A stretch of 64,000 bases of DNA, from assembly GCF_021134715.1 (NCBI RefSeq), contig NC_060027.1:5084001-5148000 (forward strand), read 5' to 3'. This document shows, in pieces, positions 706 to 49,438 of this stretch; position 1 is the first letter of the stretch; every line of letters begins with the position of its first letter. The stretch comes from Daphnia pulex (Eukaryota > Arthropoda > Branchiopoda > Diplostraca > Daphniidae). The notes below the pieces were generated by a model. The model was not told the DNA's origin. It ran no database searches and worked only from the letters and a program-made list of their open reading frames with translations. Both the position numbers and the translations under genes were made by a program.

Positions 706-861
706 TCCTTCAGAATGGGCTTCACTTTCTGTCGTCTGCAATGTTAGCGGCGGTTTTTTATCCTTGGAAAAATCAAAACTTTGAACCACATCATAGCTAT
801 TGCAGTCTTTTTTGTTCTAGTTAATTCCATGTTCACCCCAAAAAGTTAAGTTTGTTTAGCT
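706..861 (+). promoter_or_regulatory. MCM8 5' region (source of the copied fragments)
   Basis: The stretch just before the MCM8 start codon, likely 5'UTR and proximal promoter. It contains the segment GAATGGGCTTCACT...TGTTAGCGGCGG, which recurs in three other places in the window (about 14508-14545, 48660-48715 and 50150-50205), in each case beside other MCM8 sequence. Because those copies also carry MCM8 exons, this locus is the source and the others are derived. Confidence 0.6.
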
Positions 862-3800
862 ATGGCAGATTCAGGAAATAATTCTAGAGGTAAAGAAAGA
901 GGTGGGTTTCGTGGTAGAGGCAATAACAACTGGAGGTCTAATAGATGGAGAGGACGTGGATATCAAAGAGGCCGAGGATCAACAAGAAACAATGACAACA
1001 ATAACGGTAATGAGAAACTTTAATTTGTTTCTGATTTATTCTAAAAATGTTTATAAAGATATTAGAGATCCTCCTTCAAACCAAAATATTCAGTCTTCTG
1101 ACAGCGAGACACCAGCAAGGCAGAGGAATCGTATAAATCAGCATTTCCCACCAGTATCTTGTCCATATAAAGGGTGGAAACATTACTTCCCATCAGAAGG
1201 TATCAACACACTTAGAGAATTGAAAGATTTATCTAATAAAACTTATAAATTTCCATAATTTTCACAGATTTTGTTCCAACTACGAGAACAGTTCAAAAAA
1301 TTAATTGGTCAATTGAGTTATTTTCCAATCAAGAAGACTTGTGTGACTTCAGTGCTGCAGTAGAGAATGGCGGATTTCCCCTAGATTATAAATTCTTGAT
1401 TGAAGATCAATACTTTTGTGAAGTATGGCCTCAGTTCAAAGATGATCTAATTAATACCCCTACAAATACATTAGCAGTGCTGAGTCTAGCAATGTACCAG
1501 GTAAATAAATTGAAATATAACCTGAAAATAGCATGTTTCATGTAACTACAGCATGTATTCCACAGCTGCTTGTGGAAAATGCCGAAAAAGATGGGAACGC
1601 TGACGCGGAGGATGACCTCTCTCAGAGAAGCAAACTAGCAAATGACGTACCTTATATTCGTGCTCGATTGATCAACTACAGAAAAATTACTCCTCTCAAG
1701 AATCTTCGTGCTGCCCTTTTCGGAAAGTTGGTCGCCGTGTCTGGAACCTGTGTGCGGGCATCCAACACCACTCCTCTGTGCCTATCTCTAGCATTCCAAT
1801 GCCGCACATGTTCGGGCGTAATGACTTACCCTCAAACTGATGGGAAATATGAATCACCACCTCGCTGCATCTTAGATAGGGATAGCTTGCAGTGCACTGG
1901 AACCAACTTCGACCCTCTCAGAAGTTCGACCAAAAACGTAACGATAGAATGGCAGTCGATCCGCATTCAAGAAAACAGTTCCGAAAATCTCGTAATTATC
2001 TTACCATAATATCTCATTAGGTTACGACATGATTTATGATGGACTTTGGTTGCTCATGCTTTTAAAAATTCAGGAAATAGGCAGGATTCCACGGTCAGTC
2101 GATTGCGAATTAATGGAAGATCTGGTGGGCACTTGCACTCCGGGAGAAGTGATCACGGTGATTGGCATTGTTAAGGTATATACTTTAACTGTCCACAAAA
2201 TAACTTGAGCATAACATTGCTTTGTTCGAAGGCTGTTAACGTGACAGACTCCGATCGTGGATCTAAAGATAACAGCATGTTCACCTACTACATTGAAGCG
2301 GTTTCCATTCATAACCAAGACCGGGGAAGCAAGGCTGAAGCCGAAACCGAGCCGTTAAGTGAAACAACGTCTTCATGTACTGGACTTCTGACGTTTAACA
2401 TGAAAGATTACCACGCAATTCGGGTTAGTCTTATTTCCTTACAAGAATACGGTCTTGAATGTATTAGAATTCAATTTATTTTCGTCTTTGATTTCCATAA
2501 TTATCTTTTTAAATATTCCTGAACATTGTTCCAAGCGTTTGAACAACATTTTTTCGCCCATGAAAAAAACTGTTTATTAACTGATAATGATTATAAAAAA
2601 CAAACAAACCAAAGCAAACAACAGCTTAAAATTAAATAATTTTTTTGTATTACAATTACAGAAAATTCACGAAGAACCAAATCTATTTGCCTTTCTAGTG
2701 GCTTCGCTATGTCCTTCCATATATGGCAACAATTTAGTTAAAGCAGGTAGCCTATTTGCAATCTTTTGTATCTTACGAATATGACATGGTATGTATGATC
2801 TCATCCTTCTAGGACTGCTTCTTGGTCTCTTCGGCGGTAACAATTCCCCGATATATGCTTCGAAAGGTCCGTTTTCGAAAAGAGCCGACATTCATGTTTT
2901 GATCGTTGGTGATCCTGGTCTCGGGAAATCCCAAATGCTCCATGCCTGCTCTATGGTTTCTCCACGAGGTTCATTAAACACCTATCTTTGTTTCCTTTTT
3001 TTAAAAAATGTTGGCCTTTTTTTTAAAAATGCAATGATACTTATTTTTACAGGTGTTTTCGTGTGTGGTAACTCAACGACGAATTCCGGCTTGACAGTTA
3101 CTCTAACAAAGGATGGAAAAACAAATGGTAACGAGTACACTCTAGAAGCTGGCGCTCTGGTATTGGGAGATCAAGGAACGTGTTGTATCGATGAATTTGA
3201 TAAAATGAGTGGACAGCATCAAGTAAGTATTCTGTCTAAAAATTATTTGAAATTTCGTCCCAGTAACGTTTAGTTATTGTTTTCATTCGTTTAAGGCTTT
3301 ATTGGAAGCTATGGAACAACAAAGCATAAGGTACAGTACATGTCAACACTATAAAAACCCAGAGCAGTTCACGTTTTTATGAGACAACTAAATTTACTTT
3401 TATCAGTTTGGCTAAAGCTGGCGTTGTTTGCACTTTGCCTGCACGCACGTCCATTCTTGCTGCCGCCAATCCGGTGGGAGGTCATTATAACCGAGCTAAA
3501 ACAGTATCGGAAAATATTAAACTTGGACCAGCGCTTCTCTCCCGTTTTGACTTGGTTTTCCTCTTACTAGATCGACCGGACATGGTACATATTGACATAA
3601 AATCAATTTATATAAAATTAAAAAAAATTAATATTCTATTAGACCGTAGATGTGATGTTGACTGAACACATTATGGCGTTGCATGCCGGAAAAAAATCTA
3701 TTAATTCCAATGCGTCTAGGTCCGCCGACTGGAGAAATTCGTCCTTGGTCAGTAGTTCAGAGGAAAATGAAAACACTCTCAAGTAATCACAATGATGTTA

Positions 3801-4584
3801 TTTTAGGGTAAAATTTTGTTGTAGTTTAGCGTTAAGCCTATTCTGAATTTATTCACAGAGCTCGACTTGTTTTGGATGATGCCAACGCAGATCTTCTACC
3901 AGCGCCTTTGCTTAGGAAGTATATTGCTTACGCTCGGGAATACGTTCATCCTGTATTGAGTGAAGAAGCTAAAAAGGAAATCAACGATTTTTATTTACAC
4001 TTGCGCATGTCGCAATACTCCAGTGATTCGACTCCAATCACTCCTAGACAGTTGGAATCCCTTGTGCGACTTTCTCAGGTACAGACACAAGAGCCAAGTT
4101 TTTTCTTCATAATCGTTCTACAAAATTAATGAAACCAAATTGTGAAAATGTAAGGCGCGTGCTAAAGCAGAGCTACGCATAGAAGTGTCAGGGCAAGACG
4201 CCCGCGACGTCATAGAGTTGGTGAAAACTAGCTTTGACGACGTATTCAAGAACGAATTTGGTGCACTGGATTTCAGCCGCTCACTAAATGGTTCGGGTAT
4301 GAGTTCCCGCAATAAAGTAAGATACAACATTCTAAGCTTCTACACCTGTTGTAATGTGCTACAAATATATTTGGTAATACCTTCAGGGCAAGCGATTCGT
4401 CGAATTCCTTCAATCCTATGCCAGCAAGAATGATAAAACAACTTTCAAACTTGACGAACTGAAAACGCTGGCAGATCAATGTGGAGTGGGCCAAAAAGGA
4501 AACTTTAAGCAATTCATCGAAACACTAAATAATCAAAATTATTTGCTGCACAAGGGAGGTTGCGTTTATAAGTTGGTAACTTAA
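862..4584 (+). CDS. MCM8: DNA helicase MCM8 (15 exons)
   Basis: MCM8 is an AAA+ helicase that works with MCM9 in homologous-recombination repair. Exons from splice signals and phase: 862-1006, 1068-1199, 1268-1500, 1566-1991, 2074-2175, 2232-2423, 2662-2746, 2813-2968, 3053-3222, 3296-3330, 3407-3584, 3643-3782, 3859-4078, 4155-4316, 4387-4584, giving 857 codons, close to the vertebrate length. Visible features are an Arg/Gly-rich N-terminus ([17 protein letters not shown]) typical of MCM8, Walker A GDPGLGKS (about 2910), Walker B CIDEFDKM (about 3185), the sensor-region stretch ANPVGGHYN and the arginine-finger motif LLSRFD (about 3535). The start is the first ATG ahead of the RG-rich segment. 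All phases agree and no break is seen. AATAAA lies at 4669-4674. Fragments of its 5' end are copied elsewhere in this window. Confidence 0.95.
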
Positions 4585-9165: not shown

Positions 9166-10112
9166 TTAATTTTTTGTTGTACTTTTTCTACATTTACTCA
9201 AAATTTCATAATCAAATTGTTCTTCAAGTGTGTTTTCTGGGCTGGTTTCATCAACAGAATATCTATAAGGGAATTTGAAGTAAAATAACAAAACATTTTC
9301 AAATCCTGAAATTAAAAACTTAATGATGGATTGACTGATTTGAGGTTGGTGAGTGCATACCCAAGGTTTTTGAAAAATCCAACTGCATTAAAATTGTGCA
9401 CAAATACAGTAAGCACAACTTTCTTCAAGTTGGCAGTAAAGGCCATCAGCTCCAAAATTTGAAGCATGAATCGACCAAGTCCCTTCTTTCTGCATTCCAT
9501 TTCCAATTGCAATTCATAGCTGTAAAATTCATGCAATGCTGAGCATCATTACGGTTTAAAATGTGATTAGTCAAGTTAAGATAATACCAATATAAAACAG
9601 GAAAGCCGTAGTCCATGTCAAACCGGAAATGAGAAAAAGCTATTGGATTACCCTCTTTTGTAAAGGCAACCAAATACCAAGCAGAATCTTCAGTCATTTC
9701 TAATAACTTCTCTTTCTCATTCCAGCCCCAAGCACTATCTTCATACCTGCACATTTAAGTTACCACAAATGTTAATCAACTTCAGAAAATTTGTTATCAA
9801 GCTTATGAAATGAATCATACATTTGTTTCATGTTCCTTTTCAACAGGTCAAATGACCAATCAATTGTAGCTTGGTCAAGTTGGGAGACTTTACAACATTT
9901 AAATTGAACCTCTAACCCATTTCGCGAAAAAGACTGAAACGCTATCAAATGTCCAAGAGGATTTTCCTATATTTTAAAAAGAATGTCAATAATGTATTGG
10001 TTGGAATGTCAATTGATGAGGAACTCACTTGATTATTCGCCTTCTTCACGACTGTTTCGTCTTCAGTTAACGCTTTTGATTTTTTCTTCAACCTTTTCTT
10101 TCTAGAGAACAT
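9166..10112 (-). CDS. NAA40: N-alpha-acetyltransferase 40 (histone H4/H2A NatD; 5 exons)
   Basis: GNAT-family enzyme that acetylates the N-terminus of histones H4 and H2A. Exons in transcript order: 10029-10112, 9821-9966, 9588-9746, 9361-9519, 9166-9262, giving 214 codons with consistent phase. Supporting features are a basic N-terminus (RKKRLKKKSK), the stretch EDSAWGWNEKEK, the acetyl-CoA loop RKKGLGRFML (R/Q-x-x-G-x-G/A) and the C-terminal SYEIL-like segment DYEILSK. The true donor of the fourth exon is at 9359-9360 (GGGTATGC). Reading on past it gives an intronic tail that lacks the YSVDETSPEN...DYEILSK terminus. The gene faces FCSK, and its promoter side has been interrupted by a transposon 190 bp upstream of the ATG. 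Confidence 0.93.
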
Positions 10113-10301
10113 TTTTAGCCAAAAAATTATTTGCCTATTTGGCGTCTATATTCTATAATTCAAGATGTGTCAAATGGACTCAAATCAACGTGAAATAAAA
10201 ATTGGAGAAGCTAAAGCAACGGCGGGAACTGGAATCGTCTACCACTGTTGCCATTGCTTACAATTAGCCTGTTTTAATTATTTCCATGATTTCCATTTAT
10301 C

Positions 10302-12108
10302 CAGAGCCATAGATACCTGGTCAGTTCATGGCTGTGTTGGCTTCCCTATCCCGGTTTCAGGGTAAACGTATCCCCGATTTTCAGACATTTTAGGGCGGAG
10401 CTTGTCAGAAGTTGTGAAGTGGAAGAATGAATCAGCGCCATCTAGTGATAAGACGTTGAATACTTTCGGCGGCCATTTTTGTGTAATATGTGAATACGGC
10501 GGCCATCATCGTGTATTACGTGAATGAAGCCTAACCATAATTTCTGTAAAAATGGTTGGCAGGTGTGCTGTTCCTGGTTGTAAAACAACATATTACAAAG
10601 GAAATCAAAAAGAAAACGAGGTTACCCTGTTTACAATTCCTAAAACTTCATTATCAAAATGGCAAGAACTAATTCCATGTAGCAATTTGACGAGCACCTC
10701 ACTTATTTGCTACCGTCATTTTGACGAAAGTGACTTTAAATCAGGGATTGAAATTTTTAACGTGTTCCATCCTTTCCAACGTAGGCATCTTAATGCTGGA
10801 GCAATTCCCAAACATTTTCTCATAAATGGTATGTATTTCCTTTCATGTAAAATCTTTAATGTCACACAGAAACTAAACCATTTTCATTTTAGATACATCT
10901 AGCCGACAAGCAATGCAAAATGTTGATTGTTTTAAATGGAGAAATAACCTTAATGGTATTTTTACATATGTTTATTTTGTTTAATATTAAATAACGCAAT
11001 TCTTAAATATATTTTGTAGTGGAAGCAAATGCTAGCAATGCATCAGTAAGGAAACGACCAAAAGTAGACAAAATACCTACTACGACAAAGAGAAAAAAAT
11101 TGGACAGTACAGGTATTGATAATAGTTCTCTTTATATTATATTTTGAAGAGCAATTGCTTTAAATTTAATCTTATAGCACCCTCCATGGAAGTTACCTCT
11201 ACTATTCAAGAAACAATCGACATTCACCAGGCTGCTGAAGAAGCTATTTTTGATCCACTTCCTGGTGTAAACGAAAACGTTGCTGTTGTCATTGAAGATT
11301 CGACAGTTACATCACCTTCTATGGAAGCAAGCTCTACTAATTTCAAGTCTAATTTTGTGACATTTCAGTCACTAGTAACTTTATCAATGATACCAAAGAA
11401 TTGGATATGGTCTTTTGATCAAATCAAACAAATGATTTATTGCATTTCGATGGATCAACTACCAAATGGAAATTATAATGTGAAAAGTGTACATTTTCAA
11501 AACAAACAAGAAGTAATGTATTATGTCAACGGAAAGAACATTCCATCAAGCACTACTGCTTTGTCAAACCATTTCAGAACAGTTGAAAATATAACGCAAT
11601 TGATAAAGGATTTCAACGATCGAAAAATTTGTTCATGCATTCCTCATTAAAGGTTCATAAATATTAACTTTTAATCTCGTCTTTCTGGTATATTGGACTC
11701 AGCTGGCGTGTTAAGATCGAAATATTGCAGAAAGAGAATACATTTCAAAGTAACTGAGAATAAAACGTACCATGTATTTACACCACATATTTTTTTTACA
11801 CAACCAAACAATAAAATGTAAAAATGTGAGGACACTTAAAAAGATAGGACACTTAGAAGTTAGATAAAACTTAGAGGTTTGACAGTTGGATACTTCTCCT
11901 TTTTATTATTGTTCACTTCTTGTAGAAAAGTAAGCTGTGATTGGCCAATGAGTTTTTCATAGACCCTTCCTGATTGGCTGGCTTCACGTAGTAGCTGACA
12001 CACTCACTAGAGGCGCTCATTCATTCTTCCAAATCGGACCACGTTTACCCTGAAACCGGGATAGGGAAGCCAACACAGCCATGAACTGACCAGGTATCTA
12101 TGGCTCTG
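10302..12108 (+). mobile_element. 1807-bp TIR element carrying a THAP-domain gene
   Basis: Begins CAGAGCCATAGATACC at 10302 and ends with the exact reverse complement at 12108. The terminal inverted repeats are 68 bp (10302-10369 and 12041-12108) with no mismatch that I can see. The flanks are ATTTATC at 10295-10301 and again at 12109-12115, a 7-bp target-site duplication. The paralogous segment at about 15056-15075 reads CATTTATCTTATGTCC with no insertion, an empty site. The only gene inside is a THAP-domain protein with no recognisable transposase catalytic domain, so the element may be non-autonomous or its transposase is unrecognised. P-like elements use THAP domains for binding their ends; the CAGAG terminus also recalls hAT elements, so the class is open. 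Confidence 0.93.
10552..11650 (+). CDS. THAP-domain protein inside the TIR element (4 exons)
   Basis: Exons 10552-10828, 10893-10955, 11020-11112 and 11178-11650 join in phase to 301 codons. Residues 1-90 form a THAP zinc finger (C2CH): C5 and C10 in MVGRCAVPGC, Cys and His of ICYRHF about residue 55, a Trp in SKWQEL, and the AVPTIF-box equivalent AIPKHFL. A basic stretch (KRKK, RKRPK) in exon 3 could be a nuclear-localisation signal. The C-terminal 150 residues (KNWIWSFDQIKQMIYC...) are not recognised and show no RNase H-fold triad I could point to. The open frame has no stops or frameshifts and all introns have consensus borders, so the gene is young or selected. It may act as the end-binding factor of the element or be a domesticated DNA-binding protein. 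Confidence 0.85.
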
Positions 12109-12515
12109 ATTTATCTTACCCTTACGTCCATTTATTTAGTAATTTATATGAGCTATCCAATAGGTGTGGAGAACTAAAAAATTTGCATACACAGCTATAC
12201 AATATCTATTTACTAGTTTCAATATTAAATTGCTTACCGCATTTTAATTTATTTATATCCCGAAGCGCAAGCCAGAGTACTCTAATTTGCCGCTAGACGG
12301 TGCTAGTGTTTGTTTATATACTCTTATCTTGTACACAACTACCAATACCACAACTACAGACTACACAGACAGATGTAACTTCACAACAAACTTTAAGAGC
12401 TTAGTCGTTATTAGTTGATCAATTTATACAGTAAAACAAAAAAGTGCGTTCAATTAAACACGCATCGAAAATTAAATAGCATTAAAAAAAAATTAATTTT
12501 TATGATTAGTAAAAA

Positions 12516-12540
12516 ATGTGGACTTGCATTGCTATTTCCT
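12516..12540 (+). pseudogene. Orphan FCSK start (first codons only)
   Basis: The copy-A remnant of FCSK exon 1: an ATG followed by codons for WTCIAI, identical to the real FCSK start at 15460, after which the sequence runs into unrelated DNA of the inserted block. If transcribed from the duplicated promoter it would make a short out-of-context peptide. Confidence 0.85.
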
Positions 12541-12611
12541 CAGCATCTGCACAAACAGGTATTCGTCTAAGTGTAAATTATATTTCTAATAAATAAAATT
12601 TTGTATATGGA

Positions 12612-13190
12612 TTGATGTTTTGAGCCAGTTTGTTGGCGGTTCGTTGGCGTCACTCTCTACTTCCAGGATTGGTACATGGGTCTCAAACTCCTGCTCAAAC
12701 TCCTCTCCAAACTGTTGCTCGCTGCCACAAGTGCCTTCCTCCAAGAGTTCCTCAGAATCTGCACAAGCGCCTTCCTCCAAGAGTTCTTCAGCATATGCAC
12801 AAACAGGTATTCGTCTAAATGTAAATTATATTTCTAATAAATACAATTTTGTATTTACCACTTTCAGATGGATTGACGTTTTGAGCATCCACTTCCAGGA
12901 TTGCTACATGAGAATTAGGTAAAATGTCATCCGAGAAATATTGGATTCCATAAGCCAAACGTTCATTATCTAATTAAGGTTAATAATTTAATTTAATAGA
13001 AGGTAAAATGTTTTAATAATTCGTGTAAAGTTAACTTACCGAAACAGAACGGTCCAAGTTCATGGTGGATGCTATCACAACTGAAAAACATTGCCTTTTT
13101 TAGAATGATTTTACATATAATGTTCAGTAATCAAATCACTTACAGGTGACACCAATATTCTCCCTTTTCAAGATATACATACTCCTGATC
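12612..13190 (-). CDS. Unrecognised multi-exon protein, partial
   Basis: Minus-strand exons with plausible splice borders. One near 13145-13190 reads MDQEYVYLEKGEYWCHL, one near 13046-13085 reads SCDSIHHELGPFCFG, one near 12885-12972 reads LAYGIQYFSDDILPNSHVA and on. An acidic one near 12612-12800 has a repeated EELLEEG motif and ends near WLKTSIH. The pieces HVAILEV (third exon) and HVPILEV (fourth) look like an internal exon duplication. About 70 bp of flanking sequence is also directly repeated (around 12538-12610 and 12790-12860). I do not recognise the protein. Its limits and completeness are uncertain. Confidence 0.4.
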
Positions 13191-13291
13191 CATGATAAGT
13201 TAAAGAAAAAGTGAAATAATTTTTTTTATAATAATATTTTATTTTGTTATTCGTCAGTTTAATGGTCTTCATTTATTTTCCCTTATACTAC

Positions 13292-13640
13292 AGACTGCTG
13301 GGCGATCCAGAACTCATCAAGGTGAAGAAAGGTGACCTAATTCAGCTCCAGAGACATGGTTTTTCTTTTGGGTAAAGGTTCGAGATTTGAAAGCAAACAA
13401 GGCAGATAAGGTATTCTAAAAAAAAACTTTGTTAAAACTTCATACTTCAAACAACTTTGTTTTAGACTCAAATTGACACTGCTGTCAAGGAGTTACTTGC
13501 ATTGAAAAGCAAGTTTAAGTTGGCAACCGTCATGGAGTGGAAGGCAGATAGTGCAATCCCAAGTCAAGTGGAGAAACAAGACGAAGATTCAACATTAAAT
13601 GTGGAGATGAAATGATTTATTGGAAAGTAAAGAAAGCTGA
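13292..13640 (+). pseudogene. Captured fragment of glutamyl-prolyl-tRNA synthetase
   Basis: Two exon-like pieces encode the end of the Glu-tRNA synthetase part (LLGDPELIKVKKGDLIQLQR) and a WHEP helix-turn-helix linker repeat (KVRDLKANKADK, then after an intron TQIDTAVKELLALKSKFK). This order is that of animal EPRS. The frame breaks at a TAA between the two pieces and ends after VEKQDEDSTLN, so it is not functional. An intron of about 48 bp ending TTTTAG is kept, so the copy came from genomic DNA rather than mRNA. Related fragments lie antisense near 49590-49735 and 51060-51175. Confidence 0.82.
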
Positions 13641-13774
13641 CAAGGTACGATAGATGGAAAAAGAGAGAAGGTAAGAAAGACACAGACATTTTTTAACACA
13701 AACACACATATGAAGACACTTTACTCTGAATTTTTTTACTCTTGTTTTTCTTCTCCTTTTCTCCTCATAGCCAT

Positions 13775-14348
13775 TTACTCTTCATCCTCGTCGAGGCTGC
13801 AATCTGAAAAGGATCTCGACAGATCGCTGTCCTCGTCCGAGGTGCTGCTTTCCACCAAATTCAACCTGGCCTTTTTGGCTTTCTTTTTGCGTAGGGCCTT
13901 TTTCCTCTTACGCTCTCCTTCTCCTAGGTTTTTAATTTAAAAATTTTTATTTTTTAATTTGTGATTAATTATGATGTCTTACCTTCAGATATGTCAGAAT
14001 CATTTGTGATGTTGTATTGTTGTTTCCAGAATTGAGGTCTCCAGAAGAATCCGATTCCCCCTGAGAGGATTCAACACAGGGGGAACATCTTCCTTGTCGG
14101 AACTTTCATCATCAGAGGCTGTAAGTTCAAATCAAATCAGTAAGTTATACATTTATCTTAATAGTCATAAAGGTGAAACTTACTTTCTCGATACTTGAGG
14201 TGTTTCTCATAGATCTTGCACCAACTGAAATGTGAACTCAGACACCTAGAAATAATAAGATACAAGACAAATTAAAGTACAACCTACAACCTGACAAACT
14301 TTAAATTGTCTTTTACTTACTTTGTACAAAAGTAGAGTAGACATCCAT
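13775..14348 (-). CDS. Small acidic/basic low-complexity protein, copy 1
   Basis: Starts at the ATG of 14348 (MDVYSTFVQ), then exons separated by short introns: one with HFSWCKIYEKHLKYRE, one acidic Ser/Asp/Glu-rich, and a last exon with a Lys/Arg block (GERKRKKALRKKKAKKA) followed by TSDEDSDLSRSFSDCSLDEDEE and the stop at 13775. The phase between the first two exons is not clean in my reading, so the model may be imperfect. The acidic tail and basic block suggest a nuclear or nucleolar protein, but the family is not recognised. Copies lie at 48860-49438 and 50349-50919, with a partial copy at about 51765-51980. Confidence 0.5.
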
Positions 14349-14450
14349 TGTGTAATAATTGTAAACAGAAAGCAAATTCAGCAGGAAGCAAATTTAGAAA
14401 TGTTTTGAGAGAAGTTTTCAATTTCAAGGTCTTTTCGATTTTTTCTATTT

Positions 14451-14483
14451 GACGGACTCCCCCAACGTCAAGTTGGAGTCCGT
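14451..14483. repeat. Hairpin of the composite unit (copy 1)
   Basis: ACGGACTCC...GGAGTCCGT imperfect hairpin with a 3-base bulge and a loop around TTGAC, followed on the plus strand by AAATCTAG. It recurs at 48728-48760 and 50214-50246. A hairpin a few bases before CTAG resembles the 3' end of a Helitron, but the base after CTAG and the copy junctions have not been tested. Confidence 0.6.
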
Positions 14484-14507
14484 AAATCTAGATGGCTCTA
14501 GGGTACG

Positions 14508-14687
14508 AATGGGCTTCACTCTCTGTCGTCTGCAATGTTAGCGGCGGAAGGCAGAGGTTCAACAAGAAATAATGATAACAATAATAATGTGCAACTTAAA
14601 TTTGTTTCTTATTTATTCTAAAATGTTTACAAATAAGATATTAGAGATAAAGAATAAAGAAACTAAAATGTTCAATCTTCTGACATC
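14508..14687 (+). pseudogene. Captured MCM8 5' fragment (unit 1)
   Basis: Matches the MCM8 5' region (about 710-755), then jumps to the end of exon 1 (about 965-1006), intron 1 and the start of exon 2, stopping in CTTCTGACA. The MCM8 start codon and most of the RG-rich exon are missing. The same internal deletion is seen in the unit at 49.87-50.2 kb, so those two share a history. Intron 1 is retained, showing DNA-level copying. Confidence 0.85.
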
Positions 14688-14864
14688 GAAACGCTATCAA
14701 ATGTCCAAGAGGATTTTCCTATATTTTAAAAAGAATGTCAATAATGTATTGGTTGGAATGTCAATTGATGAGGAACTCACTTGATTATTCGCCTTCTTCA
14801 CGACTGTTTCGTCTTCAGTTAACGCTTTTGATTTTTTCTTCAACCTTTTCTTTCTAGAGAACAT
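14688..14864 (-). pseudogene. Orphan 5' end of NAA40
   Basis: Second copy of NAA40 exon 1 (start codon at 14862-14864), intron 1 and the beginning of exon 2, cut off at 14688 where MCM8-derived sequence begins. It lacks the whole acetyltransferase domain. If transcribed it would run into the composite unit. Confidence 0.88.
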
Positions 14865-15480
14865 TTTTAGCCAAAAAATTATTTGCCTATTTGGCGTCTA
14901 TATTCTATAATTCAAGATGTGTCAAATGGACTCAAATGAGTCAAATCAACGTGAAATAAAAATTGGAGAAGCTTTAAAGCAAAGGCGGGAATTGGAATCG
15001 TCTACCACTGTTGCCACTGCTTACAATTAGCCTGTTTTAATAATTTCCATGATTTCCATTTATCTTATGTCCATTTATTTAGTAATTTATATGAGCTATC
15101 CAATAGGTGTGGAGAACTAAAAAATTTGCATACACAGCTATATAATATCTATTTACTAGTTTCAATATTAAATTGCTTACCGCATTTTAATTTATTTATA
15201 TCCCGAAGCGCAACCCAGAGTACTCTTATTTGCCGCTAGACGGTGCTAGTGTTTGTTGATATACTGTTATCTTGTATACACAACTACCACAACTACAGAC
15301 TACACAGACAAATGTAACTTCACAACAAACTTTAAGAGCTTAGTCGTTATTAGTTGATCAATTTATGCAGTAAAATAAAAAAAGTGCGTTCCATTAAACA
15401 CGCATCGAAAATTAAATAGCTTTTTTTCCAAAAAAATTAATGTTTATGATTAGTAAAAAATGTGGACTTGCATTGCTATA
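14688..15480. repeat. Duplicated NAA40/FCSK 5' region, copy B (empty site)
   Basis: Direct repeat of 9936-12535 without the THAP element. It supplies the promoter and start of the functional FCSK gene and carries an orphan NAA40 5' end. Around 15056-15075 it shows the uninterrupted target CATTTATCTTATGTCC. It differs from copy A by short indels, such as an extra ATGAGTCAA-like step near 14936. Confidence 0.92.
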
Positions 15481-18400
15481 GCCTGTTCAGATCCTAAATG
15501 GGCTAATGCTATCACAGAAGAGTTATCTATTCTTAACAACAAAGGCCTTTTAAATTCTCAGTTGTCTTGTGTTGTACTAAAAGATACTGGTGGATTGAGT
15601 GACGTTGAGGAAACTCTGAATACTTTGCTGGTTACAGCGGAAAAACTCTGTAACAATGATGGGTTTGAAAATGTACTTACTAGCTTAATTAGAGAAATTT
15701 ATCTTTTGTAGTTGATTAAGTTACACTATTTTGTTGTTTTCTTGAAATATAGGAAACATTCGATGTCCAGAATAATTCACATATTTTGATTATTCATCAT
15801 GATAAGTTTTCTGGAAATTATCCATGTTATTGGCCTAATGGCATTGCTTTTCTACCTACTCAAAATAAGAACAGAAATGGTTCTGGATTGGAAACATATC
15901 TTGAATTCATTATAAATTTATGCTGCCAGGTAAATATAAGAGACCATTCTATAAAAGGAAAATTAAGTTGTTAAGTTCTTGACATATAGCTGAAGCAAGG
16001 AGCACCACCTGGAATTTGGATTGTTTCCAGTGGTTTTGTCCTTTCTGGGCGCATGAACGAGCCGTTTGAATGGCCTCTTCCTACACCAGACGCTCTTGCG
16101 TTTATTCTGGGGAGTCAAAGCGGAAGTGCAACCCATTGTGATGTAGGGAAATTCTTGCATCCTGGAGAAGCAGTAAATTCCTTAACACGTTTTTCGCTAG
16201 ATCAACTTTCCGAAGAATTTGTAGAGAATTTCAACAGTGGAATTATTTATCTGAAATCAACAGTTGCTGCAAGTTTGATTTGTTTAAGTCGGAAATTTCC
16301 TTTGAATCGTTGCACGTATATCGGGGAAGATAATGGTGCCAAAACCATGCAGGTAACGAATTGCGCTTTTGAGATGGCATTGGCACAACATTAATCCATC
16401 TCACAATAATTTTTATTTTTAGTTGTCTTTGTTCTATGATTTGCTTGGGCCTCTTTGGATTAAGGATAGACAAATTTTTTTGTCTGGTGATAGCACCCAA
16501 TCACAGGATAAAATTAGTTGCATTGACAATGACGGAGATAAAGTTAAAGCTAGGTGCATTCAATTCATAATGTTTGTTTGATCATGAACACCTTAAGAAA
16601 CGATTCAAATTTTTCCAGAATGATGCTTTGGGAGGAGCTTCGTGAGTTTGAATTCCGTGCGATTCCTATTAATGGAATAAAACATGTTAATTGGACTGCT
16701 CTTCCTCTGGAAAAAATCTTCCATCATTCAGATTCTTCATTATTTCCTTCCGCAAATCTTCCATCAATTTTACACAGCTTATCTAAGCAGCAGAAACCAT
16801 CAACGATGCTTGTGAACAGCTTAATTGAAACCACCCTGAAAGACAACGCCGAGTTGTTTATGGTTTCTTCTTCCATTCAAACTAGCCAACCCGACCGAGT
16901 GTTGCAATTGGCAGGCAGAGCTTACTTCATCAATGTTAAAGTCGATTTGGATGAGGTTCGAGATATACTGTCTAATTTAAATCTCAAATTATAAGAATCT
17001 TTTATTATTTTTTATATAGATTCCCGAGTTTTATTTGAGTGACAACGTCTGTATGGTTGGTTATTGGATACGCGTAGAAAAAGAATTGAGATTAGGACGA
17101 TCCCTTTTCTCTGCTACGGACATCCCAGTATTAGAATACAGCCATTCCCGTGCAACGATTTTTGGTCTCAACTGGTCAACCTACTTTATGCTTAAAGGAA
17201 TTGAGCCAGAAGACATATGGACGTCTGATGGTGTTGCCCATTCACTTATGACTGCGCGCCTGTTTCCATTAGCTTTGGACGCTAATAGCTGGAGAGATCT
17301 GCTCTGGCTTCAAGATATTAAAGGATCTACAGATTCTCGCCTGGAGAGTTGGCGTCAAAGTAAAAGATATTCCATTGACGATTTTCGTCGCTTGAGTGAT
17401 CCGGTTGCTGCGCTTCAAAATCTTCGATGGCTCAACTCTTCAGTTATCTTGCAGTCTATTTCGCATTGGCCAGGGGCATTAGCCCCATATTTTCACCGAG
17501 CCTGTGCTGGTAAGTTACAGCAACCAAGCTGCTGTGTTGATTACTAATGACGTTCATCTTGCAGTATCTACGAAAATATTTGAAATTTTTTTGTTTCTAC
17601 AAGAAATTGTACACATTGTTTAAAATGTCGACTGGGGTTAGAATCCACTTTGTAAATTCGACAAGAGTAGTTAAAGGTAGAGGTAGGGGAGGTAGACAAT
17701 GTAAAGTAGAAAGTAACGTTTTTGTAATAATCCGTAAATAGCCTCTTCTTTTAGAATAGTTATATACATTATCAATAACTATAATCTCTTGTGATATGCA
17801 ATCTTAATTCTTTAGAAAATTGGAGTGACTCGTTACTCAGTGCTCTGGACGAGGCAGTAATAGAAGGCGACATGCGCAGTTGTTCGCGGATATTGGCCGC
17901 TATTGCTGAGCTACTGGCTTGCAAAGCTGGTTCTCAGAATGGTTTGCGTAGCGGTCCTGCTTCCAATAGTGCATGGAAACCAGCCTTTGAAATGCTAAAG
18001 GTTAGGAATTTTGAAACAAATATTCTTTTAACCCACATTTTTTAACTTTCTTTATTTGAATAGCACTCGTTGCGTGATGGTGTTCTCGCTCTGGCTGATC
18101 AACGATTGAAATGGATGTGGACTCCGGATCTTTTGCTGCGTGCTGCCCGTCATTACGAACGCGCAGTCCACATTCTCATCCATGAAACTGTTAAAAGTGT
18201 TCAAAACCATATGATAAAGAACTGCGTAGTTTCAAACATTAGCCGCCCTCCCATTGGTATTAATTTTGACTAATCAAAACGGCAATATCCGTGTTAATAT
18301 TGAAAATGTGATACTTGATAGGTGAGTGGATTGAAGCGGAATGTCCTGCTAGACTCGATCTCTCTGGTGGATGGTATGTAAACATTTTATATAGGATCGT

Positions 18401-42330: not shown

Positions 42331-43476
42331 AAGTAATATTAATTAAAGTTTCTGCTGCTTGGTTTTTAATTTCTATAGGACATCGTTTTTGTATATTTTA
42401 GCTTCAATGTGATACCATTTTTTGATGTACTCAAAAATTAAGAAAGTTATTGTTTTTTTTTGTGCTGGTAGCAGCAAATATTGGGTAAGCCACCGATCTC
42501 ATTTTCCACTACTGCGGATATTATCAAGAGAATCCCGGAAGTATTAGGCGTTTCCTGATTGGAAGTGAAGCTGCAAAAGCCTTTCTACAATGCAAAAAGT
42601 GTTATACATAGGAAAGATGCGAAGCGCAGGTAACCCAAGGTTTTCATGCTTGTGATAAACGCTGCATAAAAATCACTGGGTAGCTCGTTTTCCTCTTGTC
42701 AGTAGGAAGCTAGGCAAGAAATGCATCTGTGGTGCTCTTGTATTCACAATGTATCCACACAAGTAGTAGGTGGAATTGGCTTGCAAAAGATCCAGCTCGA
42801 GTGAACACAATGCAAATCGAAATGAAATCTATGTTTTCTGTATGTTTGATGAAATTTGTATTTGGGACATTCCACGCCAAAAAAACCAATCGATGGCCCG
42901 TCAAAATTTATATTTGGATAAAAATTGGAGTTAGTATTGAAAAAAAAACAAAGATGTATTGTCTAATTTTGTATTTTTTATTTAATTAGTTAAGGAGTTA
43001 TTGCGAATTAAAAAACGCATTTTTTTTATTTTCAGTGAAGTCAGAAAATTTTTTAATTTTTATTTTCTCGAATTCTTATAATCTATTTTTCACCCGATTG
43101 CATTTTTTAAAAACGTCAATCGATTTCTTATTAGTTCCTTTAAAAAGCTCACGAATTTATTTTATTTTTAGAAAAAAATCAAATTTTTTTCAACTAAAGT
43201 CGGCACTGTAGTTGCAAAGGCTTGCGATGAAACAAATGACAAACGACAGCCACCCACGACATTTCTAAACAAGCCTAAATTTAAAATTTAAAAACAAACC
43301 TTTCAACTAAAAAAAATACCTTAAACAATACACTTTTACATGAAACACCTGTGATATTGGACCTAAATGAGATTTCGAGACGCTGGACCTAAGGGTGAAT
43401 TGGGTTATTATAAATAGTATTTTCTTATTTATTAGTCCACTTCTTAAATTTTACGCGTTATTTTGATCATTTACTA
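42331..43476. other. AT-rich DNA without recognised genes
   Basis: Long A and T runs and no supportable reading frame. It may be an intron or intergenic DNA between the collagen-like fragments. Confidence 0.35.
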
Positions 43477-43900
43477 GGGTCAAAGGAAGATACAGGTTTA
43501 ACTGGTGACTGCGGAGTAAAGGGTGATAGTTGGCCCAAATAGGATAAGGGAGATATCGGAGTTGAAAACACTGGTGATATTGGACCTAAGGGAGATATAA
43601 GGGGGATATGGGTATCAAGGGTGAAATTGGAGTTGGAGACACCGGACCTTATTGTGATAAGGCAAACTTGGGTTACTATAAAAGCATATTTTAGCATTTC
43701 AATATTTGGAATGAAATACATTAGTATGTTTAAAAATTTGAAAATGGATTTTGAAAAATAGGAATAAAGGGAGTTACGGGTTCATCTAGTGAAATCGAAA
43801 ATAAGGGTGGCAGTGCATCCAAAGGTAACAAGAGAGAAATTGGATTTGGAAACACTGCTGCTGATATTGGACGTAAGGGGATTTGACAAAAATTTAATGC
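43477..43900 (+). pseudogene. Decayed collagen-like Gly-X-Y gene
   Basis: Exon-like pieces encode degenerate Gly-X-Y repeats: TGLTGDCGVKGD, NTGDIGPKGDI, KGEIGVGDTG and, after an AAAAATAG acceptor near 43760, IKGVTGSS and DIGRKG. Stop codons and at least one frameshift interrupt the series (for example TAG near 43542), so it is not a working collagen. Arthropod collagen-domain genes are often multi-copy, which fits a dead duplicate. Confidence 0.6.
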
Positions 43901-45240
43901 TGACATTATATTTTTCCGACATAAAATTTTTTTCAAAGCGTTTTCTGACGACCCTCTTTACAAGAACAAAGAGCTCTGTATCGTTAAATCGGCGAAGACC
44001 AACCTTATTGAACTTTTTCTCCCTTCCAGTCCAACAGAACTTCCTAGCAATTGAAATAGTCAAGCAATAATTTAAAATATTACTTAGAAGTTTATCTTCG
44101 TTTAAACCTCCAATCAGCATACTGAAAAAAAAAACAATTTTTTTTGAAATATTTTTAACAACAAAAAAGTAAGTAGTAAAAAGTAAAAAGTAAGTTCTTT
44201 TAAACCTTCTTTCAAAATTTTCTAAGTCGGCTAAATCGTTCATAGGGAACTTTTCGATTAGGTTATCCACGGCAATGAAACTTTGTTTTTTGTCGCTCGA
44301 TTCATCTACGTCAAACCTTAGCTTCGAAACGAATTCAGTAAGGGCATTAAGTTTGATTGCCATATCCTCTTGACGTCTCAGCGTTTTTTGACTGTTTTTA
44401 TATGTTGCAGCTATCATTCTGTAGTATTAGTTCTGATTCAATAGTTCGGATGCTGCTGATGTAGTTCTTGATTGATTGTTTTCTTGCAACTTTAATGATT
44501 GCACCTCTTCATCAACACGAGGTCTGTTACTTGATACTTCTTTTGAAAAAAACAATTGTAATTAAATAAAAACAGCTAAATTTTTTTCGTTACTTGGTGT
44601 GTTAGGTGTAACCTGCGAATCCCCCACAGCTTTTTCATCAGTTTCGGCTTCTTCTACGATCAGTAGCATTGAAGAAGGTTGAACTGGAATTTGAAAAAGT
44701 GTTATTATTCGTTAATGTGTAAATTTATATTGACAATGTATAAATAAAAATAGAATTCTAAAAACCTACTTTTTTCCCAACAACTACTGTGTCTGTTCTT
44801 TTTACGTGCTGGCTTGCACTCCCAGATGGAATTATTGGACGAGTTTGGCTATCAATTCTTCCGGTTTAAGGGTTTAGGGGTCTCTTGTAATGGCCTTCTT
44901 CTTCTTCAGGCAAATCTTCTTCCCGTTGTCTCAATCGAACATGGTAAGTATGAAGATGAAGTCAAAGTTTCTTGGCTGCTGCTAGATGATAAGGACGAAT
45001 CTTTCAGGAGGGACTCTTTGGCGCCACTGTCACTGCTCTGTGACTCGCCTGAATCAGGAGAATTTCCCGAATCATTCATGATATCTAGATTGAATGTAAA
45101 ATGTAACTAATTATTGAAAGATTTTCAGCAAATACCGGTTTACCTTTTGTGTACACTGGATCTTCTAGAATTGATTTTCCTGGTCGACGGCTTTCCGTAG
45201 AAGTAGGAACTTCTGGAGTAAACATAAAAAAATCTACATT
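43782..45240 (-). pseudogene. DUF4806-like gene, probably decayed
   Basis: The minus strand contains a region with the layout of the DUF4806 domain. A piece with NLIEKFPMNDLADLENFERR (about 44210-44270) and, after a short intron-like gap, LIGGLNEDKLLSNILNYC and FCWTGREKKFNKVGL (about 43970-44125). Upstream exon-like blocks are Ser/Glu-rich (MLLIVEEAETDEKAVGDSQV near 44592-44683, GNSPDSGESQSSDSGAKES near 45000-45090) with plausible splice borders. An in-frame TAA lies between two blocks near 44430, and another stop interrupts the block near 44865, so I call it broken. DUF4806 function is unknown. The match is from memory of the domain's pattern and should be tested. Confidence 0.5.
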
Positions 45241-45666
45241 ACAGTGAAGGTAAGAAAAATGTTAATAAGTGTAGGGAAATAACTAAATTAATTAATTCAC
45301 AGAGGTTTTTTTTCTGACAATCACGTCATAGAATTATGAGGGATCGAACAAACCAAATTGAAAGAATTAGGTACAAGTCGTAAAGATGTGTTATATAATG
45401 AATCATGGTGATATAAAAGATGAAGTCAAACAGAAAATTTCTATACGGATAAAAACATGCAGAGGAAAAAAATATCAAGCAAGCCAAGAAAATGGAGCAA
45501 CAAGAGAGAAAGAACAAGAAGAAGAAGAAAATGAGGTAATTGCACATTATAAAGAACTAGAAAAAACAAATTTTGCGAGAAAATGAATGAATCTTGCTCT
45601 GCCTCAGAATGAAAAATCACCAATCTAATATGAAATGTAAACAAGAAAGTTTTTAAAATTATTGAA

Positions 45667-45882
45667 TAGGGGAGAGCGGGGTTGGATGAGACAGGGGTTG
45701 GATGGGGCAGAGGAGTTATCCCATAGAAGTAATGATTGGAAATTAAAAAAAAAAATTTGAGCATATGCATCACACACTTATTAATACGGGGCTAAAAGAA
45801 ATTTTTCCTGCCATTAGAGGGACTTACATAAGACCCCACTTTCCCATCCAACCCCTGTCCCATCCAACCCCGCTCTCCCCTA
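45667..45882. mobile_element. Miniature TA-flanked inverted-repeat element
   Basis: TA followed by GGGGAGAGCGGGGTTGGATG at 45669, ending with CATCCAACCCCGCTCTCCCC then TA at 45882. The arms match for about 40 bp with one or two mismatches, and each arm has an internal repeat of GGGTTGGATG. TA target duplications and small size fit a Tc1/mariner-type miniature element. Confidence 0.85.
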
Positions 45883-46103
45883 CATTTTTCGTACACAAAC
45901 AAAGCTGAATCAACGTTTTGAAGAAAGGGCTCAGCTAAGCCCATCAGCAATGGACAAATCTGGTCAGTGTTCACCAGATCTCTTCACCAGCGGAACCCCC
46001 AACCATGCGAAAAATTTAAAAAGATGGGGAGGGCACATCAGAGGATAAAATCTAAAAAAAAATCACAGAAGACGAAGTCAATTCAAATAGCAGTAAAAAT
46101 GAT

Positions 46104-46140
46104 GATGAGGAGAATACCCTCTGCCAGAGGGTATCCTCAT
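46104..46140. repeat. Short hairpin
   Basis: ATGAGGAGAATACCCTCTG followed by CAGAGGGTATCCTCAT forms a near-perfect stem with almost no loop. It lies just upstream of the hAT transposase remnant, and could be a fused end of an element or a secondary-structure relic. Confidence 0.55.
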
Positions 46141-46179
46141 TAAGAAAGAACTTGGGAAGCTTTTTGTTAGACCAAATGA

Positions 46180-47090
46180 CACTTGATGGAATTCTTATTA
46201 CCGTGCAATCAAAAGAGAGAAGAACTTTCTTTTAAAAAAACACCAGAAACTAACAGACATCTTCAAGCACTTCAATGTTACACCTTTAAGACCTGTGGAA
46301 GAAGCATTTTTTTTAGAATATGTCAAAATTATGACACCTATGGCCAACGCTCTCGACATTCTGCAAGGAGATAACAATATTTCCATTGGATATCTCCTCC
46401 CTTCTCTAACTGCATTACAGAATCAGTTAGAGAAGTTAAAAAAAAAGCGGAATAAAGCACTCGAAAGCATTAATAAATGCCCTTTGCAATGGACTTACTA
46501 AACGGTTCAGCCATATATGTTCCTGGATCGAGAACTGCGTTTAGCAAGTATGTTGCATACCCGTTTTAAACTCTCTTGGATTAAGGGTGAAGATCAAGAA
46601 GAAGCCATCATGCTATTAAAAGATGATTTTCAAGATGAGTGCGACCGGGTTGGAACTGACAGGCCTTCATCTATTTTTAAGTAATTATATTTTTATGAAA
46701 TTAAAATAATATTGGATTTTATTTGAATTTTTTGATCGTAGCTCAAAAGCAATAACACCGGAAAGCAATAGTGATGACAGCGATGATGAGAACCCACCCA
46801 AAAAGAAGCCAAAGAAGGATTTCTTTAAATCTTTATGACCAAAAACGGCCGTAGAAACTGAGGAACTTGACAGATTTTCAAACGAAGGAATTGCATCTAC
46901 TGAATCAATTTTAAATTTTCCAATTTTAAGCCACTTGTTCTTGCGTTACAACACTGCTCTCCCTTCATCCGCATCAGTCGAAAGGCTTTTTAGTGTAGCT
47001 GGAAGCATTTTTAAGCCAACGAGATCAAGGTGAAGGACAGGAATTTTGAAATGCTTCTTTTCCTCAAAGTCAAGGGGTACTAAAAATATA
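46180..47090 (+). pseudogene. hAT-family transposase remnant
   Basis: Frames encode the C-terminal part of a hAT transposase: FFLEYVKIMTPMANALDILQG, then YMFLDRELRLASMLHTRFKL, then after an intron-like gap the dimerisation region [20 protein letters not shown] with [13 protein letters not shown]. Several stops and frame changes (for example near 46500 and 46838) break it, and the DDE core is missing or scrambled. A GATCGCGATC-rich region and a terminus ending CACAACACTG lie downstream at 47170-47320. Confidence 0.82.
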
Positions 47091-47159
47091 ATGCCTTGTA
47101 AATTCTAGCTTAAAAAAAAAATGTATTTTGCGTAAGTGGTTTTGTGTTGAAAACGTATG

Positions 47160-47320
47160 TTCTTTCCCCCTTTGCCATCTAGCGGCGATCGCAAAAGAGA
47201 TCGCGACCGCGATCGCGATCGTTAGGTGAAATCACGATCGCGATCGCGACCTCGATTGTTTTTTTTTCTGTTGATCGGGACCGGGATCGCGATCCAAAAA
47301 AAAGATCGGTCACAACACTG
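47160..47320. repeat. GATCGCGATC-rich subterminal region of the hAT remnant
   Basis: Repeats of GATCGCGATCGCGATCG in both orientations, then GGTCACAACACTG ending near 47320; read from the other side this begins CAGTGTTGTGACC, a hAT-like terminus. I did not find the matching left terminus. Similar GATCGATC repeats flank the protease-carrying element at 36.9-37.7 kb. Confidence 0.6.
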
Positions 47321-48472
47321 CCCTCTGCAAACTCACGTGCGACTCTCACACAAGAGTCGGAACACGAACATAAAAATGTGATTTATAAAGCTATCAACGG
47401 AATAGATGCAATAATTATTTTTTAAAGATGAATTGCATTAACATTTTTGCCCTATCGACCCTATCGATGAATATGATTCGATAGAATCTTTGCAAGAGAA
47501 TAGAAAACTTATTTTTGGGCTTATAACCTCCAGAAAGTATAGCCAATACCCAGGCTTAACACCAAAGCCTTCTACAGAGCTCCCAGAGAAAATTTAAGTT
47601 TATTTTTCATTTTTTTTAAATATTACATTGTTATAATTGAATATTACACCATTCAATCATTACCTTTTCTTACAACTCTAAGCAGGGAATTTTGGTTAAC
47701 ATAAGTCATGATACTGAATTGGAGTAGCGACCATTTCCCCTTTGACAAATTACTACCTCCCTCCTAATATTTTCTTCAGTAGCCTGATTAATAAATTAGT
47801 AATAACAGAATTTGTCAATTTATTATAAATTTATTGTCAATCCTATATAATTATAATTGTGGGAGCTTATTTAGCCATAAAAAATTACAGGAGAGACCAT
47901 CCATAAATGACGTAACCCAAATTTTTTTACCCCCCCACCCTCCTGTAACCCCTTTTCACAAAAGACAAACCCCTTACATTCCATAGCATTTGTAGACCCT
48001 GAAACAAATTTGGGTTAGCTGTTTGTTGATTCATTAATCAAAATAAAAACTAATTAGAGTTAATGGCCATTAAATCTCAAATCAAATTCCTCCTGCCATA
48101 TATCAGAAAAAATGATCGTCTACGGGAATTAACGGGTTTGTTTCATACTTTCCATCGTATCGCGACCAGATAAAATTTTCTTTATCCATTCATTTTTCAT
48201 CTTTTGTCCGGTTCAAGCCAACATCATCCATTGACGAATTTCTGCGATTCTGACTGGTCTGACTCGAGGGAGAATTTCGAAAAAGTAATCACAATTATTT
48301 AGAACCATCATTTTTTAACAGAATTTTAAGAAATAAATAAATTGAACGAGACATTTGTTCACTACTTGGCAGAAGGAAGCTATTGCCACTACTAAAAATA
48401 AAACAATAAAATTATTCAATTAAAACAATGTAGTACCTTTACAGAGTTTGTACAGAGTGTATGATGTGATAC
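47321..48472. other. AT-rich DNA with one repeat-like motif
   Basis: No gene is seen. The stretch near 47893-47985 (CATCCATAAATGACGTAACC then a C-rich tract) resembles a motif that I recall as widespread in arthropod repeats; this is from memory and not tested. Confidence 0.4.
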
Positions 48473-48715
48473 GTGACCAGTTGTTATTGCCTCTACCATG
48501 AAACCCACCTCTTTCTTTACCTCTAGAATTATTTCCTCAATCTGCCATAGCTGAACAATTTAACTTTTTCAGGTGGACATGGAACTAACTAGAACCTAAG
48601 TCTGTGCTAGAACACAAACAATGTATGACGTTCAGATTTTTTTATTTTTCCAAGGATAAAAACCCGCCGCTAACATTGCAGACGACAGAGAGTGAAGCTC
48701 ATTCGTACCCCAGAG
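48473..48715 (-). pseudogene. Captured MCM8 5'UTR and exon 1 fragment (unit 2)
   Basis: The minus strand matches MCM8 from about 706 to 935: the 5' region, the start codon context CTATGGCAGATT, and the RG-rich coding part up to GGCAATAACAACTGG. A point change turns the fourth codon into a stop (GATTGAGG against GATTCAGG), so it cannot encode MCM8. Confidence 0.87.
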
Positions 48716-48727
48716 CCATCTAGATTT

Positions 48728-48760
48728 ACGGACTCCAACTTGACGTTGGGGGAGTCCGTC
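48728..48760. repeat. Hairpin of the composite unit (copy 2)
   Basis: ACGGACTCCAACTTGACGTT followed by GGGGGAGTCCGTC, the same structure as at 14451-14483 and 50214-50246. Confidence 0.6.
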
Positions 48761-48859
48761 AAATAGACAAATCGGAAAAAGCCTTGATACTTCTTACTTC
48801 TCTCTTCAAACCAAATCATCAACTTCTCAACTTGCTTCCTGAATTTGCTTTCCTGACAA

Positions 48860-49438
48860 ATGGATTACATAGGCTACAAATATGGAAAGTAAGTAAAAGA
48901 CAATTTAAAGTTTGTCAGGTTGTAGGCCTACTTTAATTTGTCTTTTTTCTTCTTATTTCTAGATGTCAAAGCACACACTATACAGTTTTTCCTCATTTAT
49001 GAAAAGAACTTAAAGTATCGAGAGGGTAAGTCATTCATTCTTTCATTTAGAACTATTAAGATTGATTGTGTAACTTACTGATTTGATTTTATTTGAACTT
49101 ACAGCCTCAGATGATGAAGATTCTGACAAGGAAGATACCCCCGTTGTGGAATCCTGTATTCTTGTGGAGACCCTGATGTTGAGTCTGGAAACGACACCAG
49201 TGATGTTTCTGGAGAATCTGAAGGTAACATATCATAAATAATCACAAGTTAAAAAATTTAAATTATTTAAATTAAAAACCCAGAAGGAGAGCGCAAGAGA
49301 AAGAAGGCCCTACGTACCAAGGAAGCCAAAAAGGCCAAGTTGGCTTTGGAGGCAAACTTGGAGGCAAACTCGGACGAGGACAGCGACCTGTCGAGCGCTT
49401 TTTCGGATTGCAGCCTCGACGAGGATGACGACGAGTAA
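48860..49438 (+). CDS. Small acidic/basic low-complexity protein, copy 2
   Basis: Begins MDYIGYKYGK at 48860, followed by short introns with GTAAGT donors, an acidic exon (SDDEDSDKEDTP) and a last exon with a basic block (GERKRKKALRTKEAKKAK) and an acidic tail (SDEDSDLSSAFSDCSLDED) ending at TAA 49438. The acidic exon seems frameshifted relative to copy 3, so this copy may be broken. The function is not recognised. Confidence 0.45.

Follow-up and report, generated by a model that had tools for sequence, protein, structure and literature searches.

A local family of mosaic duplications, probably built around a small gene, on one contig of Daphnia pulex

Family organization and genomic distribution

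As judged from sequence comparison, the chimeric units described here most probably form a local mosaic segmental-duplication family that is built around a small gene, S, and lies on one contig of Daphnia pulex (NC_060027.1, hereafter C11). In our best reading, S is a small "core duplicon" that would have spread through short-range copying, tandem amplification and ectopic exchange, and a mobile family is, taken overall, very unlikely. The analysed stretch of 64,000 nucleotides, referred to as the window, corresponds to C11:5084001-5148000 of an assembly of 133.19 Mb in 13 contigs, of which C11 makes up 6.6 of 133.2 Mb (5%). A full unit contains, in order, a 5' piece of MCM8, a GGACTCC hairpin (H), the four-exon gene S and an antisense piece of EPRS, and five such units were identified, three in the window and two elsewhere on C11:

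Window 13213-14700: unit c, full MCM8-H-S-EPRS order
Window 48477-49710: unit b, full MCM8-H-S-EPRS order
Window 49846-51177: unit a, full MCM8-H-S-EPRS order
C11:5283254-5284365: unit e, full MCM8-H-S-EPRS order
C11:5285180-5286414: unit f, full MCM8-H-S-EPRS order

The first-pass annotation of this DNA had described the same order at 12.5-14.7 kb and in a tandem array at 48.47-52.08 kb, and the order is borne out at the three window sites as well as at the two further ones; the 12.5-14.7 kb unit aligns to the one at 50 kb over 1138 of 1170 query bases with 90% identity, far beyond chance. Within the array, two full tandem units are confirmed, whereas 51.73-52.08 kb holds a lone exon 4 of an S relative. 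The annotation's view of a repeatedly copied chimera of host-gene pieces also stands, but not its attribution to a Helitron- or Pack-type mobile family, since the order is confined, among the matches listed, to one ~0.9-Mb stretch of C11. No account of the locus was found among the titles listed in searches on Daphnia chimeric genes, segmental or large-scale duplication and MCM8, which is no proof of the locus being unpublished.

Genome-wide DNA and protein searches score best candidates only, so that the match counts are lower bounds; the copies in the window itself are counted in, and one locus may contribute several matches. The 1170-bp unit returned at least 27 matches, 26 on C11 (4.967-5.841 Mb) and one of 55 bp on C10, the latter being a relative of hairpin H. 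With the S protein and exons at least 23 matches were obtained, 23/23 on C11, which speaks against a mobile family, and all of the at least 12 matches of MCM8 5' DNA and the at least 11 of stretch F (described below with unit c) plus the EPRS part were on C11 too. Among the matches listed for this 133-Mb genome, the unit is found solely on C11, at 4.97-5.84 Mb, and the EPRS pieces recovered by DNA search are likewise on C11 only. MCM8 and EPRS, the two distant donors, are themselves located on C11, ~750 kb from each other; by arithmetic, the chance that 2/2 donors fall there would be ~0.0025 if drawn at random over the genome. Matches and donors restricted to C11 are unlike the expectation for genome-wide capture and transposition, and hence disfavour the mobile reading. 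S or its exon 4 occurs in 15 places with differing flanking pieces, giving mosaic blocks with one core, and, as in core duplicons, the copies among the matches listed lie on one chromosome, both in tandem and dispersed.

Donor genes and junctions

Both donors had been named correctly: window 1560-2006 has MCM8 chains as best matches (E 2.1e-30), and the EPRS gene, at C11:5837505-5843045, matches Glu-tRNA synthetase (E 4.4e-103) with WHEP repeats present. The WHEP family search returned as well another WHEP gene at C11:3415 kb and a sub-cut-off match on C6. The MCM8 source does lie inside the window, as had been proposed. In the passages of PMC2680839 that concern it, MCM8 is described as single-copy in D. 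pulex, which agrees with the MCM8 pieces found here being fragments only. The donor and the pieces in the window are:

713..4584 (+): MCM8 gene, donor; copied stretches 713-933 and 969-1249; start codon ~865
13213..13370 (+): EPRS piece E1, unit c; source C11:5839005-5839175, 82%
13371..13652 (+): EPRS piece E2 with intron, unit c; source C11:5840399-5840713, 85%; AATAAA on the minus strand at 13616-13621
14507..14700 (+): MCM8 5' pieces, unit c; 41-bp core 14507-14547 plus the 969-1118 stretch with intron 1
48477..48704 (-): MCM8 5' piece, unit b; exon 1, TGA at codon 4
49582..49710 (-): EPRS piece, unit b; AATAAA (plus strand) at 49613
49846..50190 (-): MCM8 pieces, unit a; 969-1249 stretch plus 41-bp core
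51049..51177 (-): EPRS piece, unit a; 94.6% to C11:5840585-5840713; AATAAA (plus strand) at 51080

Alignment to the source genes shows that MCM8 and EPRS pieces retain introns (intron edges read by eye), hence they were copied from DNA, as the first-pass annotation had stated. EPRS is represented in unit c by two pieces that are 1.2 kb apart in the source gene. The junction between H and MCM8, at position 713 of the latter, is common to seven units, namely a, b, c, e, f, h (C11:5282691) and one at C11:5236704 that has no adjoining S. The S/EPRS join, with an exact overlap of 1 bp, or of five bases with one mismatch allowed (by eye), is identical in a, b, c, e and f. The sixth S copy with an EPRS piece beside it is d (C11:4967 kb), in which the join is shortened and MCM8 and H are lacking. 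Alignment of the copies revealed the common ends expected of a mobile unit only in part: units a, b, e and f have both EPRS-piece edges in common, the outer edge is different in c and d, and the flanks are homologous.

Copies i and j (C11:5234394-5235922) carry EPRS instead of MCM8 beyond H, in EPRS stretches other than those of the window units. As far as alignment tells, several distinct EPRS parts are used in the family.

Among the alternatives, the one that fares best is that S was once the divergent neighbour of MCM8, the units being plain duplications of this pair to which EPRS was joined later. It would account for S and the MCM8 piece diverging from H with the same junction in six units, but it is unlikely given that no S match lies beside the present MCM8, among the matches listed, and that H adjoins EPRS rather than MCM8 in copies i and j.

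The small gene S

The S copies of the three window units are the following:

13775..14344 (-): S copy c; four exons, exon 3 with a 1-base frameshift
48860..49438 (+): S copy b; broken
50349..50918 (+): S copy a; reads through all four exons (124 aa) provided that intron 1 uses the GTAAAA donor

S has four exons, the last of which encodes a KKAKKA...DEDSDLSSAFSDCSLDED tail. The reading-frame check covered nine of the 15 copies, those with four exons, to the exclusion of j, k, l, m and n, which have exon 4 alone, and of h, which has lost exon 2. Copy d is open with ordinary splice sites and copy a through the alternative GTAAAA donor; the other seven (b, c, e, f, g, i and o) are broken under the gene model used. 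For exon 4 all 15 copies were kept, although n and o are frame-shifted at the start, l is without a stop and f and o hold one, and these damaged copies (f, l, n, o) inflate the nonsynonymous counts; over the 105 pairs the pooled pN/pS is 0.37, with pairwise ratios of 0.08-0.80 and four near-identical pairs without synonymous change. On these values, S appears to be a genuine protein family that was constrained in the past. A Pfam search with S gave nothing convincing (best E 0.13).

Copies also switch partners along their length. Copy d is 100% identical to e over alignment columns 60-220 and 99-100% identical to a and c over columns 240-400, where e shows 79-90%, a pattern that has the look of ectopic conversion between copies more than 100 kb apart.

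Segmental duplications and order of events

The tandem units a and b lie in a larger block with two relatives on the same contig:

43451..57155 (unstranded): segmental duplication A, carrying tandem units a and b
C11:5229390-5241574: segmental copy B, inverted
C11:5278258-5287909: segmental copy C, inverted, with a rearranged extra piece to 5288358
51735..52100 (+): isolated exon 4 plus 3' end of a distant relative of S, without MCM8, H or EPRS

The three blocks each span ~10-14 kb, B and C sharing orientation and A being opposite; in C, the piece 5288085-5288358 has the opposite orientation, so that C was rearranged at that point. On both sides of the arrays the A, B and C flanks are mostly 92-96% identical in pieces of 0.5-3.4 kb, with one gapped stretch of 607 columns at 80% between A and B. 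Older relatives of the flanks are found at C11:4927-4932 kb (79-84%) and around C11:4965-4968 kb (67-75%). Unit b of A is 98% identical over 1351 bp to unit f of C, and 81% over 1147 to its neighbour a; since b is closer to f than to the adjacent a, the tandem step preceded the segmental step. H-bearing S copies number two in A (a, b) and three in C (e, f, h), where g is present without H, a difference in copy number that fits unequal exchange.

Three other repeats were observed in or near A. Window 40561-41545 is a nearly palindromic ~985-bp repeat, both strands of which match the same places on many contigs. The ~567-bp repeat with inverted ends at window 52599-53166 occurs in more than 30 places genome-wide; present in copy A, it is absent from the counterpart in C, where the flanks of the repeat overlap by 7 bp. 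Window 55680-56765, within A, encodes a retroelement reverse transcriptase (Pfam RVT_1), with related stretches on C7 and C8.

Mechanistically, the joins of MCM8, EPRS and S would have been made by template switching or end joining in repair or replication (FoSTeS/MMBIR-like), and unequal crossing-over and ectopic gene conversion would have followed. We infer the polymerase step rather than see it directly, and the short overlap at the S/EPRS join would fit end joining equally well. That a, b, e and f have both EPRS edges in common, as expected of a mobile unit, weakens the local-duplication reading, although the arrays concerned are related to each other.

Unit c and its surroundings

Unit c is placed between D1 and N2, in a neighbourhood composed of:

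9936..10301 (-): N1, NAA40 5' exon and upstream DNA, first tandem copy; 96.0% to 14688-15064
10302..12108 (unstranded): X, a THAP-domain DNA transposon separating N1 from D1; does not belong to the unit
12107..12540 (unstranded): D1, first copy of intergenic stretch D; 92% to 15050-15484
12541..13212 (unstranded): F, a stretch of no traced origin; sole outside relative found, 58 bp at C11:4930503
14688..15064 (-): N2, second NAA40 5' copy; 96.0% to N1
15050..15484 (unstranded): D2, second D copy, running towards the downstream fucokinase-like gene

NAA40, which was identified through window 9315-9545, is thus a third host gene next to unit c, its piece at 14688-15064 lying within a local tandem duplication: intergenic DNA on the NAA40 side is duplicated in tandem as N1-D1, which X interrupts, and N2-D2 (96% and 92%). 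Other host genes in the window are an adenylosuccinate synthetase and the downstream gene, which falls below the curated cut-off and which we take to be fucokinase-like. The D repeats were considered as LTRs and set aside, as they fit the tandem N-D duplication instead.

X has 79-bp inverted ends, 7-bp ATTTATC direct repeats on both sides and many matches genome-wide. Since its insertion site is uninterrupted in the second copy (N2-D2) and flanked by direct repeats in the first, X was most simply inserted after the N-D duplication. A 1772-bp stretch of X is 100% identical to a copy on C7, its genome-wide matches being at least those listed, and X probably moved recently.

Unit c could have formed in one event, if replication copied N-D, moved on to a distant S unit and then copied N-D a second time; insertion into an existing N-D duplication would also be possible. 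An immediate donor with the series F-E1-E2-S-H-MCM8 was not found in the genome searches, among the matches listed. An Rfam scan (gathering score) and a tRNA scan of the window were empty.

The hairpin and mobile element readings

H has one copy in each window unit:

14453..14506 (unstranded): H, unit c; GGACTCC hairpin, dispersed-repeat fragment
48705..48758 (unstranded): H, unit b
50191..50244 (unstranded): H, unit a

Searched across the genome, half of H with its adjoining bases matches on C2, C4, C7, C8 and C10, so that H belongs to a separate, dispersed repeat, and as a terminus of the unit it was set aside. In four of the five relatives (C2, C7, C8, C10) inverted ends TTGGAGTCCG...CGGACTCCAA lie ~415-495 bp apart and are TA-flanked, except for one end on C8; the relative on C4 has one end only. 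These four also have longer flanking DNA in common (79-92%). The source repeat appears MITE-like but may be part of a larger repeat, and by itself is no more than a candidate mobile element. The five copies outside C11 read AAATCC and the nine on C11 read AAATCT, a split which suggests that H entered the family once.

The resemblance of H to one end of an element with inverted ends means that a transposon end may be present, which is the point in favour of a Pack-type DNA transposon holding captured pieces between terminal inverted repeats. However, each unit has a single H, in an internal position, the array units sit in homologous flanks, and copies are on one contig only, among the matches listed. 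Terminal inverted repeats with a target site duplication were not found, either at the edges of unit c, which were read directly and are bracketed by D1 and N2, or in the segment table for the other units. We therefore consider a Pack-type origin highly improbable.

A non-autonomous rolling-circle element of Helitron type, with its hairpin near the 3' end, is no more credible. Helitrons are marked by 5'-TC and CTRR-3' ends, a palindrome just inside the 3' end and AT insertion sites, as set out in the relevant passages of PMC4778049. In the present units there is a hairpin at one junction with CTAG 4 nt after it in all seven MCM8-bearing units, the captured pieces retain introns, and both EPRS edges recur in a, b, e and f; but in 7/7 of these units the sequence is continuous through H and CTAG into MCM8, H comes from a dispersed repeat on five other contigs, c and d depart from the shared outer EPRS edge, and no unit lies outside C11, among the matches listed. 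TC and CTRR ends common to the units were not found in the seven MCM8-bearing units or at the EPRS edges, nor was dispersal at AT sites without flanking homology, the units being on C11 and A, B and C sharing flanks. The gene pieces and the short palindrome are also a likeness to Helitrons with captured genes such as Helraiser and Helibat, as these are presented in parts of PMC4778049, from which the units differ in having no TC...CTRR ends, no signs of AT-site insertion and no spread across chromosomes.

Finally, tandem near-repeats are hard to assemble, but an artefact of assembly in a repetitive region can be all but dismissed, as divergence between copies is mostly 2-25% or more, with indels of their own, the copies extend over 0.9 Mb and the same junctions recur.

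Conserved ends and the polyadenylation signal

Within the local mosaic family, the ends of the units are more alike than their middles. The comparison covered a, b, c, e and f (5/7 MCM8-bearing units) in 6/10 pairs. Between a, c, e and b, f, the first 100 columns (41-bp MCM8 core plus H) are 92-100% identical, against whole-unit averages of 73-77%, and the last stretch (S 3' end plus EPRS piece) is 98-100% identical for a and e and 78-94% for c, the best-matching windows being the first block for c pairs and the 3' end for a and e pairs. Either conversion that spread them recently or constraint could account for such ends. The contrast between similar ends and a divergent middle would be compatible with a mobile unit too, against which speak the homologous flanks and the restriction to one contig.

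A stretch GCAATAAATG, taken here as the native poly(A) signal of S, is retained in S copies h and i. In the EPRS-joined units this stretch has been removed, and AATAAA follows the join at a distance of ~28 nt in a, b, e and f, and at close to this distance in c and d, that is, in 6/6 EPRS-bearing units. The EPRS gene reads GTGAGAGAYTTG or GTTCGAGATTTG at that position in 4/4 WHEP repeats (found by motif) and AATAAA in 0/4, hence an AATAAA native to the EPRS strand was rejected; AATAAA is present at eight other antisense-strand places in the fetched EPRS DNA. In units a, b, e and f the sequence is GTGATTTATTTG, which departs from the EPRS gene by three adjacent changes; the pieces show seven to nine changes in 129 bp in all, of which the one nearest to the join may belong to S. 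In simulations, AATAAA appeared in the first 80 nt in 0.02% of 200,000 trials with seven random changes and in 0.12% with 15, the true chance being higher since multi-base mutation is omitted. The change was probably inherited by all units, and so is one event.

These data suggest that S rebuilt its 3' end via the AATAAA in the EPRS piece, which would have arisen through three adjacent substitutions once the native AATAAA was cut off. The S promoter, in turn, would derive from the MCM8 core promoter, read on its divergent side, together with a transposon fragment. A functional chimera with borrowed ends, in which MCM8 core plus H serve as promoter of S and antisense EPRS as poly(A) signal, is possible but doubtful; equally tentative is the proposal that S is a young regulatory chimera in which selection on the two ends, not transposition, shaped the family. 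The functional reading is weakened by the fact that only d, which lacks MCM8 and H, is cleanly open, in addition to a through the alternative donor, and selection as the cause of conserved ends is weakened by possible recent conversion and by the lower likeness of the EPRS end in c pairs (78-94%).

Comparison with known systems

Human core-duplicon families (e.g. NPIP/LCR16a) consist, in the review passages of PMC6920530, of mosaic blocks around one shared core, an arrangement to which the S family is alike; the S units are smaller (~1-2 kb, in blocks of ~10-14 kb), and whereas positive selection on the core gene is reported there for at least half of the human families, S exon 4 is on average without sign of it (pooled pN/pS 0.37). 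The review also asks why such mosaics stay on one chromosome (PMC6920530).

Drosophila Sdic, as portrayed in parts of PMC7475035, is a two-gene chimera on one chromosome that underwent tandem expansion and gene conversion, and the S family is likewise a one-chromosome chimera with tandem expansion. Sdic, however, fused adjacent genes and all 31 annotated copies keep coding potential, according to the same passages, whereas the S-family donors lie ~750 kb apart, their pieces flank the gene and are non-coding for it, and most copies are broken.

For unit c, the nearest described mechanism would be the templated insertion of MMBIR, in which, in the passages concerned of PMC8421209, a stretch is copied from elsewhere and return to the original template is one outcome. 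Those passages deal with short insertions in yeast, the human germline and tumours, whereas the event behind unit c would be old and kilobase-sized, and is only inferred.

Implications

To our knowledge, core-duplicon mosaics have been described mainly in primates. Here, in a genome of 133 Mb, a compact mosaic allows the donors, the junctions and both the tandem and the segmental steps to be read, and it would be a tractable system for the question of why such mosaics remain on one chromosome. If the promoter and poly(A) reading were true, S would moreover be a gene that rebuilt both of its ends from bits of housekeeping genes.
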